From: Miltoncostaea oceani
Lineage (GTDB): Bacteria > Actinomycetota > Thermoleophilia > Miltoncostaeales > Miltoncostaeaceae
NCBI RefSeq assembly: GCF_018141545.1
Contig: NZ_CP064356.1
Coordinates: forward strand, 1,240,001-1,304,000
DNA: 64,000 nt
Direction: 5' to 3'
A model generated the notes under the pieces. It was given only the letters and a program-made list of their open reading frames with translations, did not search any database and was not told where the DNA came from. Position 1 is the stretch's first letter; each line of letters begins with the position of its first letter. Below, piece by piece: positions 31,771 to 49,902 of this stretch. The translations under genes and the position numbers were made by a program.

Positions 31771-31843
31771 GCGGATGTAGCTCAGTTGGTAGAGCGTCGG
31801 CTTCCCAAGCCGAAGGTCGCGGGTTCGAACCCCGTCGTCCGCT
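31771..31843 (+). tRNA. tRNA-Gly (anticodon CCC)
   Basis: A 73-base cloverleaf: acceptor GCGGATG pairs with CGTCCGC (one G-U), D-arm with AGCTCAGTTGGTAGAGC, anticodon loop TTCCCAA (CCC), and T-arm GCGGGTTCGAACCCCGT. CCA is not encoded. The integrase gene begins 100 bases downstream, which marks this tRNA's 3' end as the likely prophage attachment site. Confidence 0.97.
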
Positions 31844-31945: not shown

Positions 31946-33028
31946 ATGGCCTCCATCATCCGGGAGCGTCACCGGCCCCTGAAGCCGTGGCGCGTCGACT
32001 ACTCCGAGCGGGGCAACCGACGGACCCGCCGCTTCGCCACCCGCAAGGAGGCCCAGGCGTTCGCCGGCGACGTTGCGCAGGGCAAACGGCAGTCGAGCGC
32101 GGAGCGGATCACGCTGGAGCGGTGGCTCGGCCAGTGGGTCACGACCCACGGCATCGAGTGGGAGCCCCGGACGCGCCGCGACCGCGGCCGCTACGCCGAC
32201 AACTGGATCGTCCCCGGCCTCGGGAAGATGCTGCTCCGGGACCTGAGCCGCCGGGACATCCGGGCGTGGCGTGCGGAGATGCTCGCCCGCGGCGCGACCC
32301 CCTACGTCGCGAACGCCGCGGTCCGTGTCCTGTCGGCCGCCCTCGGCGACGCCGTCCACGACGAGCTCATCGTCGGGAACCCGTGCCGCGGCCTCGAGCC
32401 CCTGAAGCGCCAGGGTGTGCAGCGCCGGGAGCCGGCGACCCTCGCCGAGGTCGAGGGGATCCGTGCGGTGCTCGAGCGTCCCCGTGACCGGGCGATGGTC
32501 GCCCTCATGGCGTACGCGGGCCTCCGGCCGTCGGAACGTCCGTCGCTGCGGTGGGCTGACGTCCGGGCGGCGACGCTCGTCATCCGCTCGGCCACTGCTT
32601 CCGACGGCCGGGAGAAGGGGACGAAGACCGAGGGCACCCGGACCGTCCCGATCATCCCGGCGCTCGCGGAGGACCTCGAGGCCCTGGAGCGTCGAGACGA
32701 TGGCCTGGTCGTCGGTCCGGTGGACCACGACAACTGGTCGATGCGGGTGTGGCGTCCGGCGCGTGAGCGGGTCGGCTGCACGCGGACGCCGTACAGCCTG
32801 CGCCACACGTTCGCGTCGCTCCTCATCGCGGAGGGCAAGTCGGTCCATGAGGTCGCGCGGCTCCTCGGCCACTCGACACCGGCCCTGACGCTCTCCACCT
32901 ACGGCCACCTCTTCGACGAGGCGCAGCTCGCGGGGGACGAGTCGATGGCGGAGGCCGTCGCTCGTGCACGTCACGAGGCGGCCTCCATGTCGGCGACGAT
33001 GCGGCCGATGGAGCCGGAGGGGCGGTAG
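31946..33028 (+). CDS. int: Tyrosine-type phage integrase
   Basis: A 360-residue site-specific recombinase. It has an AP2-like N-terminal arm-binding region (PWRVDYSERGNRRTRRFATRKEAQAFA), a SAM-like core-binding domain (LERWLGQWVTTHG..), and the catalytic domain: Arg in YAGLRPSERPSLRWADV, H-x-x-R-type YSLRHTFASLLIAEG, LLGHSTPALTLSTYGHL with the Tyr nucleophile. A TATCCT -10-like box sits only 8 bases before ATG, suggesting a very short leader. The 3' end overlaps the excisionase gene by 58 bases on the opposite strand. Confidence 0.95.
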   Translation: MASIIRERHRPLKPWRVDYSERGNRRTRRFATRKEAQAFAGDVAQGKRQSSAERITLERWLGQWVTTHGIEWEPRTRRDRGRYADNWIVPGLGKMLLRDLSRRDIRAWRAEMLARGATPYVANAAVRVLSAALGDAVHDELIVGNPCRGLEPLKRQGVQRREPATLAEVEGIRAVLERPRDRAMVALMAYAGLRPSERPSLRWADVRAATLVIRSATASDGREKGTKTEGTRTVPIIPALAEDLEALERRDDGLVVGPVDHDNWSMRVWRPARERVGCTRTPYSLRHTFASLLIAEGKSVHEVARLLGHSTPALTLSTYGHLFDEAQLAGDESMAEAVARARHEAASMSATMRPMEPEGR

Positions 33029-41059: not shown

Positions 41060-41983
41060 ATGCCGACCTGGAACCAGCTGCTCGCCGAGGTCCAAAGGGC
41101 AGGGAACGTCCACGATCTCACCCGCCGCAAATACCTCCAGCAGCTCAGCAACCTGACCGGCCGCAACACGATCATCTACTACTCGGCGTGGCTCCAGAAG
41201 GGCCCCATCATGGCCCAGTGGCCCGAGCCATTCCTCGTCAACGACAATGACAAGAACGGCTTTATGGCTGCCATCCACGGCATGGACCGGAGCCGGGGCC
41301 TCGACCTCATCCTGCACACACCGGGGGGCGACGTCGCGGCCGCGGAGTCCCTCGTGGGCTACCTGCGCGCAATGTTCGGACGAGACATCCGCGCGATCGT
41401 CCCTCAGCTCGCGATGTCGGCAGGCACCATGATCGCCTGCGGGTGCAAGGAGATCGTGATGGGGCGCCACTCGAGCCTCGGCCCGATTGACCCTCAGATG
41501 GGCGGTATCGCTGCCCATGGCATCGTCGAGGAGTTCAAGCAGGCGTTCGACGACATCGCAAGGAACCCGGCATCTATCCCCCTGTGGCAGCCGATCATCG
41601 CCAAGTACCACCCGACGCTGATCGGCGAGTGTCAGAAGGCCATCAAGTGGTCGCGAGACATGACCACCGAGTGGCTCAAGACTGGGATGTTCGCTGACGA
41701 CATGCCGAACAACGTCCGCGCGGCGAAGGCCATGAAAGTTGTGGACGAGCTGGCGGATCACGCGCTCACCTTGTCGCACGCTCGCCACATAGACATCGAC
41801 CGGGCGAAGGATCTCGGTTTGAACATCACAACGCTTGAGGACGACGACGATCTGCAGGACGCGGTCCTGACGGTCCATCACCTCACGGTCCAGACGCTGT
41901 CGGACACGGCGTCGGTCAAGATCATCGAGAACGACCAAGGCGTGGCATTCATCCAGTCCGCCGGCCAGGTCATCCAACCGTAG
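41060..41983 (+). CDS. ClpP/SppA-class serine protease (SDH proteinase family)
   Basis: 307 residues resembling serine dehydrogenase proteinases (SDH_protease). The oxyanion/strand region is LDLILHTPGGDVAAAESLVGYLRA, the catalytic Ser120 is in AIVPQLAMSAGTMIACGCKEIVMGRHSSLGPIDPQ, and the C-terminal half is helical. The family contains cytosolic ClpP-like proteases of poorly known substrate. ATG directly follows the previous stop. The surrounding DNA is visibly lower in GC than the phage late genes, consistent with an acquired accessory gene. Confidence 0.85.
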   Translation: MPTWNQLLAEVQRAGNVHDLTRRKYLQQLSNLTGRNTIIYYSAWLQKGPIMAQWPEPFLVNDNDKNGFMAAIHGMDRSRGLDLILHTPGGDVAAAESLVGYLRAMFGRDIRAIVPQLAMSAGTMIACGCKEIVMGRHSSLGPIDPQMGGIAAHGIVEEFKQAFDDIARNPASIPLWQPIIAKYHPTLIGECQKAIKWSRDMTTEWLKTGMFADDMPNNVRAAKAMKVVDELADHALTLSHARHIDIDRAKDLGLNITTLEDDDDLQDAVLTVHHLTVQTLSDTASVKIIENDQGVAFIQSAGQVIQP

Positions 41984-42397: not shown

Positions 42398-42658
42398 CTA
42401 CCCCGGCAGGCGCAGCGCCGGAGACTCGACACGCAGCGTGAACCGCTCGCCCGGCAGCACCTCGGGGTCGTTGGTGTAGCCGGCGGCCTCGGTCAGCCCG
42501 CGCGCCCCGATGACGGTGAAGCGGCGGGGCACGCACCAGCTGGCGGCGGCCAGCCGGTGAGCGACGTCCCAGCCGAGGAAGGGGACGCGCCAGAGCTCGG
42601 CGCCGGCGGAGCGCCCGCCGTCTTCCTCGAGGTCTCCGGTGACGATGAGCGTCCCCAC
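42398..42658 (-). CDS. Hypothetical protein, paralogue A
   Basis: 86 residues: GTLIVTGDLEEDGG..GAELWRVPFLGWDVAHRL..WCVPRRFTVIG..VLPGERFTLRVES. It aligns along its whole length with the next gene upstream (42674-42964), sharing GDLE, ELWR, FLGW, WCVPRR and the LPGE/VPGE turn. It probably has a small beta-barrel fold. GTG start. Function unknown. Confidence 0.65.
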   Translation of the reverse strand: MGTLIVTGDLEEDGGRSAGAELWRVPFLGWDVAHRLAAASWCVPRRFTVIGARGLTEAAGYTNDPEVLPGERFTLRVESPALRLPG

Positions 42659-42673
42659 CGCACCGAAGGTATC

Positions 42674-42964
42674 TCAGGAGCCGGGCGCCCCCTCGTGGGG
42701 GTCGCTGGGGATCCAGTCGGTCTCGACGTTCTCCCGCACGATGAGGCGGTAGATCTCGCCGGGCACCAGGTAGGGCCCGTGGGTTTCTCCGGTCGCGAGG
42801 ATCCGTCCCTCGTCGATGACGACGTAGCGGCGAGGAACGCACCACGTGTCGGTGAGGAACCGGTGCGTGACGCCCCAGCCGAGGAACTCGGTCCGCCACA
42901 GCTCAACGCCTCGGACGAGGTCGCCTCTCTGCTCGAGGTCGCCCATGACCATGAGGAGTGACAC
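42674..42964 (-). CDS. Hypothetical protein, paralogue B
   Basis: 96 residues: SLLMVMGDLEQRGD..GVELWRTEFLGWGVTHRFLTDTWCVPRRYVVID..YLVPGEIYRLIVREN, a tandem paralogue of the gene at 42398. It carries an extra C-terminal extension ending WIPSDPHEGAPGS, encoded by a 25-bp sequence found again at the end of the holin-like gene (45186-45210). Confidence 0.65.
   Translation of the reverse strand: MSLLMVMGDLEQRGDLVRGVELWRTEFLGWGVTHRFLTDTWCVPRRYVVIDEGRILATGETHGPYLVPGEIYRLIVRENVETDWIPSDPHEGAPGS
42688..42712 (-). repeat. 25-bp sequence shared with 45186-45210, copy 1
   Basis: The identical 25 bp include CCCCCTCGTGGGGG, a short hairpin (5-bp stem, TCGT loop), followed by TCGCTGGGGAT. On the minus strand it encodes IPSDPHEG at a C-terminus in both places. 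Confidence 0.8.
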
Positions 42965-44427: not shown

Positions 44428-44511
44428 CCGACGCGGGGAGGCCGGGGCGTCCAGGGAAGGACTGATGATGCGGATCTGGCGGTCTTATGACCCGACCTCC
44501 TCCGGCGGGGG

Positions 44512-44542
44512 TTGACTCACCACGGTGGGGTGCGGGTATGTT
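44512..44542 (+). promoter_or_regulatory. Promoter for the structured RNA
   Basis: TTGACT (44512-44517) and TATGTT (44537-44542) with 19-bp spacing. Transcription would start near 44549, exactly where the first RNA hairpin begins. Confidence 0.55.
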
Positions 44543-44548
44543 CGGCAC

Positions 44549-44733
44549 GAGCGCAGCAGTTCGCTCCGCGGTGTTGGGGAACACCGCGCAGGGGAAAGCG
44601 GCGGCGCCGGATGGCGGGTAGGTCATCCGGCGCTGCGCGCCCCGCGCCGTGCAGCGTTCCGTCCGAGGGGCGTGGAAAGATGCCCGTGTCGCGTTCCCCA
44701 CGCGGCGTTACCTACCCAACGGGCACCCCGGAC
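44549..44733 (+). ncRNA. Structured RNA candidate with pseudoknot
   Basis: Several perfect helices lie in one 185-base stretch: 44549-44553/44562-44566 (5 bp), 44567-44575/44580-44588 (9 bp, GGGG loop), 44604-44613/44624-44633 (10 bp), 44661-44670/44726-44733 (GTCC+GGGG with CCCC+GGAC), 44681-44687/44719-44725 (7 bp, stacked on the last), and 44690-44694/44700-44704 (5 bp). The 10-base loop of the third hairpin contains GGGTAGGT (44616-44623), the exact complement of ACCTACCC at 44710-44717, giving an 8-bp long-range pseudoknot. It has its own promoter. It could be a stand-alone small RNA or a leader of the DUF1508 gene 40 bases downstream. I do not recognise it as a known class. Confidence 0.7.
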
Positions 44734-44773
44734 CGCGTGTGGAGGGGGCGCCCCCGGTCGATCGGAGATCGAC

Positions 44774-44947
44774 GTGTACTTCGAGATCGTGACCGCCAGC
44801 GGCGGCTACCGCGTCCGCATCCGCGGTGGCAACCACGAGATCATGTTTACCAGCGAGGTGTACGTGGCGAAGGCGAGCGCGTACAACGCGATCGCCGTGG
44901 TGAAGGCCGGAGCCGCCAGCGCGTCGGTGTACGACCGGACGCTCTAG
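44774..44947 (+). CDS. YegP/DUF1508-family small protein
   Basis: 57 residues: YFEIVTASGGYRVRIRGGNHEIMFTSEVYVAKASAYNAIAVVKAGAASASVYD, one full DUF1508 (YegP) repeat. GTG 44774 has GGAG six bases upstream; that ribosome site lies in the loop of a perfect 5-bp hairpin (CGATC-GGA-GATCG, 44759-44771), which could limit translation. Its TAG stop overlaps the TAG of the convergent gene (shared CTAG). Confidence 0.78.
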   Translation: MYFEIVTASGGYRVRIRGGNHEIMFTSEVYVAKASAYNAIAVVKAGAASASVYDRTL

Positions 44948-45174: not shown

Positions 45175-45447
45175 CTACGACGTGCCCCCCTCGTGGGGGT
45201 CGCTGGGGATGCCGTCGATCTCGACGTTGACCGGCGCGGCCGCCGCGGCGGCGGCCTTCGCGCGGCCGTTGCGGATGACGGCGTCGCCGCCGATGACGGT
45301 GGGTGCGAGGACGGTGACGAGCAGGATGATGGCGTCCCGGAGGTCGTCCGAGATGTCGAGGCCCGCGGCGAGGAGCACGCCGAGGATCGCGCCGACGACG
45401 GCGACGACCTGGGCGGGGGTGATGTCGGGCGTCTTGAGTCCGAGCAT
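45175..45447 (-). CDS. Holin-like membrane protein
   Basis: 90 residues with two hydrophobic segments (PAQVVAVVGAILGVLLAAGLD and AIILLVTVLAPTVIGGDAV) and a polar C-terminus ending IPSDPHEGGTS. Its place right after the amidase endolysin suggests a holin or antiholin. The stop-proximal 25 bp match a sequence at 42688-42712. Confidence 0.7.
   Translation of the reverse strand: MLGLKTPDITPAQVVAVVGAILGVLLAAGLDISDDLRDAIILLVTVLAPTVIGGDAVIRNGRAKAAAAAAAPVNVEIDGIPSDPHEGGTS
45186..45210 (-). repeat. 25-bp sequence shared with 42688-42712, copy 2
   Basis: Exact second copy, again at the 3' end of a coding frame and again encoding PSDPHEG. Confidence 0.8.
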
Positions 45448-47205: not shown

Positions 47206-49902
47206 TCACCGGAGCACCTCGACGAGGAGCTGGAACTCGATCGCCGTCGTGACGCCGCCGTTGTTGCGCATCCGGACGTAGAGGCGGTTGTCCGTCGCGC
47301 TCACCTGGGTCGCGTACGCCGTCACGTCGACCTCGAGGGGGACGGTGCTCCAGCCGCCGCCGACGGAGGAGGTGCGGTCGGTGCCGTTGATCTCCATCCC
47401 GAGCGCCTGGGCGAAGTTGTTGAGCACGACCCGGACGTAGGCGCGGACGACGTGGTCGCCGGGCAGGAGGGGGACGTACGAGTACAGGGTGTAGGCGCCG
47501 GCGACGGGGGCGGAGCTGACGTAGTCGCCGAGGAGCGTGACCTTCTGCCCCTGGTAGCTGCGGCCACGGCTGATCGCGGAGCGCAGGAGGCCGCGCACCG
47601 ACCGCGCCGCAGACCGGGGCCGCTGGCGGAACGCGACGGAGGTCCCTGTTCGGCCGAGGGCGTTGAAGGTGCGGGTCACCTGGAGCAGCTGCCGGGGTGC
47701 GTCGTCCACGACGCCGACGTCGGGGACGTTGAGGCGGAGGCCGTCGCCGGGCTCCCACCGCATCGCCGACAGGGTCGCCGACAGCGGCCACGTGTCGGCG
47801 AGCTCCTTCTGGGCGAGTGGGGTACCCCGGACCTCCTCCCACGGCGTGCCGCGGAGGGCGAGCTCGGCGTTCATCCTCGCCTCGAGGAGCTGGACGAAGC
47901 CGATGTCGCCGGCGTCGACGACCCCCTCGAGGGCGAAGAGGGCGTCGTCGAGGTTCGCCAGGTCGGAGATCTCGGTGGTCACCTGGCTGCCGCGGCCGTC
48001 GGAGAGGCCGGCGCCCGACCCGATCAGCAGGAGCGTCTGGTCGGAGGCGTCGATCGTGACGCCGGGGGAGAGGACGGGGTCGGCGCGGTCGGTGTCGTCG
48101 ACCTCGAGGACCTTGTCGGTGTCGCGGCCGACGCGGCGGCGGGGGACGAGGCGGCCGGGGAACTCTCCCGACTCGAGGCTCATGGGCGCGCACCGCAGCT
48201 GGTAGCCGAACTGGGTGGCGGCGGCCTGGACGACGTCGAAGTGGGACTGGCCCTGGATGCGGCCGTCGTAGCAGCCGAGGGGACTGAGGCTCGTCGCCGG
48301 CACCGTCCGCTTCACGCCGGAGGTGATCGCGGTGCCCCCCGGGTCGGTGTAGCTCGACGAGGGCGTGTACTGGAGGTTGATGGCGGGGGCGCCGGTGTCG
48401 ATCCGGTACTCGAGGACGAGCGGGTACCAGCCCGACGCCGCCCCGACTGCCGAGTGGGTGAGGGTGCCGGTGAAGGTCCCGCCACCCGTCGAGAACCAGT
48501 TGTTGATGAGGGGTGCGGTGAACGCCGTCTTCCCGATCCAGAGGCGCGCGCGGCCGCCGACGGCGCCGAGGTCGAACGGCGTGGAGGCGCCGGCGCCGGC
48601 GTTGAGGTAGATCGCGCCGAACCACCGGACGGAGAAGTAGGTGGAGGCGGCGCCCGGCTGGAGGGGGAGGGCGAGGCCGCCGCCGGTGTTGATGACGGGG
48701 TCGAGGCGCTCCCCGTAGGAGGTCCGGTCGGGGGCGAGGATCCGCAGGGCGCGGACGTCGGTGCCGAGGCCCTGGTGGTCGGCGTCGTTGAAGTACCGGC
48801 CGCGGAGGCCCCCCGTCGGGTAGTCGCCGGGGAGGACCTGGTCGCCGACGTCGCTGCCGCGGGCGAGGAAGCCGCGCTGCTCGGTGACGTTGACGGAGTC
48901 CACGACCATGAGGTCGCCGGTGCCGGAGACGAGGCTGTTGAGGGCGACCGACAGGGTCCCCGTCATGCCCGAGGGGCACTCGAAGAACCCGATGAGCTGG
49001 CCGTTGACGAACCCGACGAGCCACCGGCCGCGGCGTTCGATCTGGAGGGTGAGGGGGAGGTTCCGGGCCGCCGCCGGGGCCTTCCCGATGTTGGCGGCGC
49101 TGCCGGTCGGGTCGTAGAAGGTCCAGAGGCCGTCGGCGATGTAGAGGAAAGCCCCGTTGGTGGAGCCCTGGATCCCGAAGAGGAGGTCGTCGCCGGGCGC
49201 GAACGTGCCGGCGGCGCGCACCACGGCGGTCGCCCGCCACGTGTCGCCGAGCGTCCCGAGGGACCGGGAGATCTGGGGGGCGCCGCCACCCGCGGTGGTG
49301 CGGATCGTCGCGGTGCCGTCGGCGACGGTGACGGTCGTGTTCGCGGCGACGGTCCAGCCGCTGAGGGCGACGCCGGGGAAGTCGTCGGCGACGACGGCGA
49401 CGGGGACCCGGGTGTAGGCGGTCGCGACCTCCTGGGGCGCCGCCGTCCACGTCCGGTCCCGTTCGTAGGCGCGGCGCAGGAGCGACCACGCGTCGGTGCC
49501 GCTCACGGTGACGCTGCCGCGGTCGATCTCGATGCGCTGGATGGAGCCGACGAACTCGAGGACGTCGTCGTCGTAGATCTCGATGAACTCGAGGGCGAGG
49601 TCCGCGGAGAAGCGCTCCCGCCAGAGGCCCTTCGCGCCGGCGGCGTTCGGGAAGGTGAGGGTGAACTCCCCGGCGTCGCCGAGGCGGCCGGTGTAGGCGC
49701 CCTCGACGAGGTCCGCGCCGGTGGGGGCGCGGGAGAGAGGGAGCTCGGTGAACCCGTACGACCGGCCGAGGACTGTGGTCGTCGCGCCCTCGGAGGCGAA
49801 CCGGCTCGTCGGGGCGATGTGGCGGAGGCGGGTGCCTGACCCGGCTGAGACCAGGCGGCGCCCTCCGGCGTTGCCGGTGCGGGATCCCACGGCGGTGGAC
49901 AT
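47206..49902 (-). CDS. Large tail protein with PA14-like domain
   Basis: 898 residues. The N-terminal region (ADLVEGAYTGRLGDAGEFTLTFPNAAG.. EIYDDDVLEFVGSIQRIEID) resembles a siphovirus baseplate/tail hub module. A carbohydrate-binding-type jelly roll follows (VVADDFPGVALSGWTV..GSTNGAFLYIADGLWTFYDP). A PA14-like domain spans roughly 350-500 (GLRGRYFNDADHQGLG..YFSVRWFGAIYLNAG..GWYPLVLEYR), then another hub-like part and a C-terminal beta domain. It probably binds host surface sugar. ATG 49902 is taken as start. Confidence 0.8.
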   Translation of the reverse strand: MSTAVGSRTGNAGGRRLVSAGSGTRLRHIAPTSRFASEGATTTVLGRSYGFTELPLSRAPTGADLVEGAYTGRLGDAGEFTLTFPNAAGAKGLWRERFSADLALEFIEIYDDDVLEFVGSIQRIEIDRGSVTVSGTDAWSLLRRAYERDRTWTAAPQEVATAYTRVPVAVVADDFPGVALSGWTVAANTTVTVADGTATIRTTAGGGAPQISRSLGTLGDTWRATAVVRAAGTFAPGDDLLFGIQGSTNGAFLYIADGLWTFYDPTGSAANIGKAPAAARNLPLTLQIERRGRWLVGFVNGQLIGFFECPSGMTGTLSVALNSLVSGTGDLMVVDSVNVTEQRGFLARGSDVGDQVLPGDYPTGGLRGRYFNDADHQGLGTDVRALRILAPDRTSYGERLDPVINTGGGLALPLQPGAASTYFSVRWFGAIYLNAGAGASTPFDLGAVGGRARLWIGKTAFTAPLINNWFSTGGGTFTGTLTHSAVGAASGWYPLVLEYRIDTGAPAINLQYTPSSSYTDPGGTAITSGVKRTVPATSLSPLGCYDGRIQGQSHFDVVQAAATQFGYQLRCAPMSLESGEFPGRLVPRRRVGRDTDKVLEVDDTDRADPVLSPGVTIDASDQTLLLIGSGAGLSDGRGSQVTTEISDLANLDDALFALEGVVDAGDIGFVQLLEARMNAELALRGTPWEEVRGTPLAQKELADTWPLSATLSAMRWEPGDGLRLNVPDVGVVDDAPRQLLQVTRTFNALGRTGTSVAFRQRPRSAARSVRGLLRSAISRGRSYQGQKVTLLGDYVSSAPVAGAYTLYSYVPLLPGDHVVRAYVRVVLNNFAQALGMEINGTDRTSSVGGGWSTVPLEVDVTAYATQVSATDNRLYVRMRNNGGVTTAIEFQLLVEVLR

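Follow-up and report, generated by a model that had tools for sequence, protein, structure and literature searches.

A candidate structured RNA with two long-range loop pairings 5' of a prophage DUF1508 gene

A 64-kb stretch of DNA (the window) that holds most of an apparently complete prophage contains, directly 5' of a small cargo gene of the DUF1508 family, a plus-strand sequence that can form a compact RNA (~44545-44751 by minimum free energy (MFE) folding). Judging from the predicted fold and its position, we tentatively read this RNA as a structured 5' leader of the cargo gene. This is the simplest reading, because the candidate is co-oriented with the open reading frame, its end (44751) lies 22 nt 5' of the start codon, and a scan detected no terminator between the two. 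An earlier note on this DNA had described a pseudoknotted RNA candidate of a class that it did not recognise. That candidacy stands: no Rfam family matched, the pairings are rarer than in shuffled sequences, the plus strand is favoured and the sequence is non-coding. Overall the observation was largely correct, if somewhat understated, and is partly confirmed; the interpretation of the RNA is partly supported.

The predicted fold has two arms (Table 1). In the 5' domain the outer helix P1 closes a junction bearing two hairpins, H1 and H2. The H1 loop together with its closing bases reads TGGGGAAC (44575-44582), and the 10-nt loop of H2, for which the MFE model shifts the register of the outermost pairs slightly, includes GGGTAGGT (44616-44623). 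P1 competes with the first helix of the earlier note (GAGCG 44549-44553/CGCTC 44562-44566). In the 3' domain, helices A and B follow each other without a break on the 3' strand, and on the 5' strand CGTGGAAAGA (44671-44680) is bulged, in agreement with their proposed end-to-end stacking. The six helices reported at that time had all been called perfect; helix A is not, as it has a 2-nt bulge. The predicted fold of the fragment that ends at 44740 contains helix A; in models running past 44751 it is displaced by a competing closing helix, A', which pairs part of the GGAAAGA region. A and A' are mutually exclusive.

Two long-range pairings connect the same two arms of this fold. The first, PK1, joins the H2 loop to ACCTACCC (44710-44717); this 8-bp pairing had been reported before, and all the sequences named then lie at the coordinates given for them. 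The second, PK2, had been missed. It is also a perfect 8-bp loop-loop pairing, a kissing interaction of the H1 loop with GTTCCCCA in the loop of hairpin C (44693-44700), with an isolated-duplex energy of -12.9 kcal/mol; the full 8 bp require the closing pairs to open, and with both stems intact 5 bp remain (-7.7 kcal/mol).

Table 1. Predicted RNA elements and annotated features, in window coordinates
Feature	Coordinates	Strand	Basis or remark
Outer helix P1, 5' domain	44545-44549/44648-44652 + 44551-44554/44644-44647	+	MFE, pair probability 0.99-1.0
Hairpin H1, 9 bp	44567-44575/44580-44588	+	Pair probability 0.98
Hairpin H2, 13 bp	44601-44613/44624-44636	+	G-U at 44603/44634
Helix A	44661-44664/44730-44733 + 44667-44670/44726-44729	+	MFE of fragment ending 44740
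Helix B, 7 bp	44681-44687/44719-44725	+	Pair probability 0.92; runs straight into hairpin C
Hairpin C, 7 bp	44688-44694/44700-44706	+	Pair probability 0.97; loop TCCCC, U-G at 44689/44705
Competing closing helix A'	44654-44660/44745-44751, 44662-44664/44741-44743, 44670-44675/44733-44738	+	MFE, fragments past 44751
PK1, 8 bp (H2 loop)	44616-44623 with 44710-44717	+	-13.1 kcal/mol, isolated duplex
PK2, kissing pairing (H1 loop, hairpin C loop)	44575-44582 with 44693-44700	+	
Proposed promoter TTGACT-N20-TATGTT	44512-44543	+	Weak; spacer outside usual range
Hairpin at DUF1508 ribosome site, GTCGATC-GGA-GATCGAC	44757-44763/44767-44773	+	-7.5 kcal/mol
DUF1508 (YegP/UPF0339), 57 aa, GTG start	44774-44947	+	Pfam PF07411 E 6e-13
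Upstream co-oriented cargo gene, 168 aa	43921-44427	+	Apparent signal peptide
tRNA-Gly	31771-31843		Attachment site; integrase gene follows
Integrase	31946-33028		PHROG integrase E 1.5e-67
Repressor-like genes	near 39-40 kb		
DUF4177 cargo gene	40283		
SDH-type ClpP-like serine protease, prophage cargo	41060-41983		PF01972 E 1e-21, PHROG 11747 E 2e-94
Lysis, tail, head and portal genes	from 45 kb on	-	

The combination of pairings was rare in controls. Among 5000 dinucleotide shuffles, 3 contained two or more hairpin loops that each had a distant, exactly complementary 8-mer. The loop-complementarity score of the candidate (6,4), computed on MFE loops, was attained by 3 of 4000 shuffles and by none of 2836 windows taken from both strands of the 64-kb region. 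The loop-pairing test was devised after the pairings had been seen, and the 64 kb offer ~600 chances; given such a search, the rarity is suggestive, not conclusive. The evidence is stronger if restricted to the long non-coding gaps of the window. The MFE of 44545-44775 was -131.7 kcal/mol, whereas shuffled versions averaged -117.2 (z -2.98). The plus strand was favoured, with z scores for 44545-44751/2 of -3.1 on the plus and -2.1 on the minus strand; eight G-U pairs of the plus-strand MFE structure become A-C mismatches on the other strand. At a GC content of 73% strong folds are common, and the energy is unusual rather than exceptional. It is not decisive alone, because z values of -2.9 or lower were also obtained for 4 of 216 randomly chosen windows on either strand of the 64 kb.

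These figures bear directly on the possibility that there is no functional RNA here, and that a GC-rich spacer folds by chance, both pairings included, and was picked out of a 64-kb search. A rate of 3 in 5000 over ~600 window-and-strand positions would be expected to yield ~0.4 chance cases, the energy is matched elsewhere in the region at the frequency just given, and no collection searched held a homologue. We nevertheless consider a chance fold unlikely, since the loop-pairing score was not reached anywhere in the windows of the actual region, the pairings occupy hairpin loops and link the same two arms, folding is asymmetric between the strands, and the gap is among the few long non-coding stretches of the window.

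That gap (44428-44773, 346 bp) separates two cargo genes, and its GC content by codon position is flat in all frames. Real genes of the region show values of ~0.6-0.7/0.4-0.6/0.86-0.97, and the DUF1508 gene follows this pattern (0.58/0.47/0.95) from 44774 on. A 140-aa open frame starting at 44525 was considered as a gene and rejected, as none of the frames of 44525-44773 shows a GC bias by codon position; the flat profile of the gap therefore marks this frame as a by-product of GC content. The gene upstream of the gap had no family match, and no relatives in IMG/VR or among phages. The protein downstream is a clear member of its family, scoring 48.9 bits against PF07411 (cut-off 22), and has relatives in the PDB (2k8e, 2k7i, 2k49 and 3bid). 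In the literature searched, DUF1508 is named without bearing on the candidate, UPF0339/YegP is mentioned only in passing, and no established function was found.

The Shine-Dalgarno sequence of the DUF1508 gene, GGAG (44764-44767), lies in a small hairpin, as had been noticed before, and its GGA occupies the loop. The stretch that leads from the RNA to the ribosome site contains a perfect 12-nt palindrome, GGGGGCGCCCCC (44744-44755); it could drive RNA dimers or compete with helix A'.

The proposed start of the transcript is not supported. TTGACT and TATGTT had been taken as a promoter placing the first nucleotide at 44549, at the first helix. The two hexamers are 20 nt apart, and a scan for sigma-70-type sites, in which they are spaced 16-18 nt, called none at 44512-44543. 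The best outer helix uses 44545-44549, upstream of that start, which would therefore cut off most of P1.

If transcribed as a leader, the RNA would consist of a 5' junction, which P1 closes and from which H1 and H2 project, and a 3' arm built from A (or A'), B and C. The arms would be locked in three dimensions by the two contacts, one between the loops of H1 and C and the other between the H2 loop and the strand at 44710-44717. The 3' arm could close in two exclusive ways, of which A' would take up 44733-44751, just 5' of the ribosome-site hairpin. Such a leader would most likely act in cis, controlling how well the DUF1508 message is translated or how stable it is in the lysogen. In constrained folds the Shine-Dalgarno sequence was unpaired with a probability of 0.58-0.69 in every state tried, with no clear on/off effect. 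The computation therefore does not support a switch between A and A', despite an exclusivity that would suit one, and we accordingly advance the leader as a possible rather than a probable assignment. Also counted against it are the lack of a homologue and of a good promoter, DUF1508 genes in relatives that lack the element, and the 73% GC content.

The prophage setting claimed for the candidate, an accessory zone, was borne out by the prophage borders. The attachment sites are an identical 43-bp repeat (31801-31843 and L009 8436-8478, window coordinate 72436-72478) corresponding to the 3' part of tRNA-Gly(CCC), and the recurrence of this tRNA piece gives a prophage length of ~40.6 kb. The tRNA-Gly is the only tRNA in the window, 12.7 kb from the folded RNA. 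The candidate lies on the plus strand amid cargo genes between the lysis genes and the repressor-like (immunity) genes; none of the cargo genes matched defence-system models. Two repeats occur nearby. A tandem 142-nt repeat (42508-42649 and 42814-42955, 70% identical) represents two paralogous small minus-strand cargo genes of 86 and 96 aa without known family. A 53-nt repeat (42688-42740 and 45186-45238, 87% identical) encodes in both copies the C-terminus SDPHEG, carried by a small cargo protein (42674-42964, minus strand) and a small membrane protein adjoining the endolysin. The corresponding gene in a related phage (L031 12831-13109) has the same SDPHEG end, and the repeat could be either a common C-terminal tag or a recombination seam.

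Position among lysogeny-side cargo, together with a compact, self-contained fold and its two loop contacts, is also what one might expect of a stand-alone non-coding RNA of the phage, ~190-210 nt long, whose targets in trans would be RNA or protein of the host or the phage. Such an RNA might oligomerize through its kissing loops, and DUF1508 would be a mere neighbour. Phages and prophages do carry ornate kissing-loop RNAs such as ROOL and GOLLD (PMC12286853). The candidate, however, is unrelated to these by Rfam, is far shorter and adjoins no tRNA cluster, and scanning detected neither a terminator nor a promoter of its own. We regard a stand-alone RNA as a live but less likely alternative, on a par with a chance fold, both behind a leader.

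Relatives of the candidate were sought along several routes. Comparison with Rfam 15, one of the checks that the earlier note had proposed, gave no match at the gathering threshold among 4227 models and nothing beyond chance at E values up to 10, the best sub-threshold matches being chance microRNA-type hits. The homologue search proposed alongside it likewise came back empty in the collections covered. DNA similarity searches of phages, plasmids and ~460 genomes recovered no homologue; matches in relatives were short GC-rich hairpins, and L002 was dismissed as chance. A covariance model built from the single sequence of the candidate (R1), which scores 229 bits against itself, gave only weak matches (≤29 bits) over 149 genomes of relatives, 399 of the class and 396 of the phylum. 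The five of these that were aligned (L030 and L041-L044) were rejected as partial; L042 and L043 lie inside long open reading frames and fit the fold in part. Pattern scans of IMG/VR and GTDB for the loop motifs returned only unrelated simple inverted repeats or chance matches.

Searching through neighbouring proteins gave a similar picture. The DUF1508 protein led to nothing in IMG/VR, GTDB contigs or phages; the few distant DUF1508 genes in relatives all lack such an RNA nearby. With the tail protein (47206-49902) as query, a related prophage turned up in G019 and a more distant one in G267, and an alignment of the protein led to four viral contigs; R1 scored above background in none of these. 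The related tail protein is 64% identical over its C-terminal part in the G019 prophage and 69% identical in an IMG/VR contig. Both retain the lysis genes and, further on, HTH genes, and differ in the cargo between, where neither DUF1508 nor such an RNA was seen. The slot beside the lysis genes of related phages holds a HicA-like short protein (by eye) and a bPH_3/SHOCT protein at L031 13110-14680, and a putative lipoprotein at L023 6885-7397. As related phages share the flanks with other cargo between them, the RNA belongs to exchangeable cargo. Its relatives are absent from the collections searched, and it is known from one copy.

A slot in which related phages carry different cargo, and the presence of inverted repeats, would also be compatible with an element acting as DNA, either a site of binding or recombination through which cargo modules are exchanged or a set of extruded hairpins. 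We consider this highly improbable. Several of the helices need G-U pairs, which are not stable in DNA; the edges of the module showed neither a flanking direct repeat nor a target duplication; and loop pairings play no part in how such sites are usually modelled.

If real, the fold would represent a structured RNA that is in no library, from a prophage of a poorly studied bacterial group, attached to a widespread protein family of unknown function. It might even define a new phage RNA class of ~200 nt, in which a pair of parallel loop contacts locks two arms together. Such an RNA would either control a YegP-type gene by sensing something in the lysogen or act alone, and would have surfaced in one prophage so far because close relatives await sequencing; we hold this to be quite unlikely. 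With one known copy, the candidate also shows how far covariation-based RNA discovery reaches at present. Crossing loop pairings, of which there are two here, form a signal visible in a single sequence, and can be tested by mutation and countermutation.

Among known systems, leaders with loop-loop contacts include the cobalamin riboswitch (kissing loops) and the purine riboswitch (L2-L3). Like these, the candidate lies 5' of a same-strand gene and has, in its predicted fold, loop-joined arms and two competing closing helices. Unlike these, it has no Rfam match, no known ligand-binding core and no homologues 5' of DUF1508 genes; in the YegP/UPF0339 family, to which its downstream gene clearly belongs, the genes of relatives show no structured leader. 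ROOL and GOLLD are RNAs of phages and prophages with several helices, kissing loops and unknown function; they measure several hundred nucleotides, form multi-chain cages and often lie near tRNA islands (PMC12286853). The candidate resembles them in being encoded in a prophage and in its several helices and predicted kissing loops. It differs in its length of ~200 nt, in matching no family model and in having no tRNA cluster, which places it outside both families, and we class it as an unassigned structured RNA candidate with one known copy.
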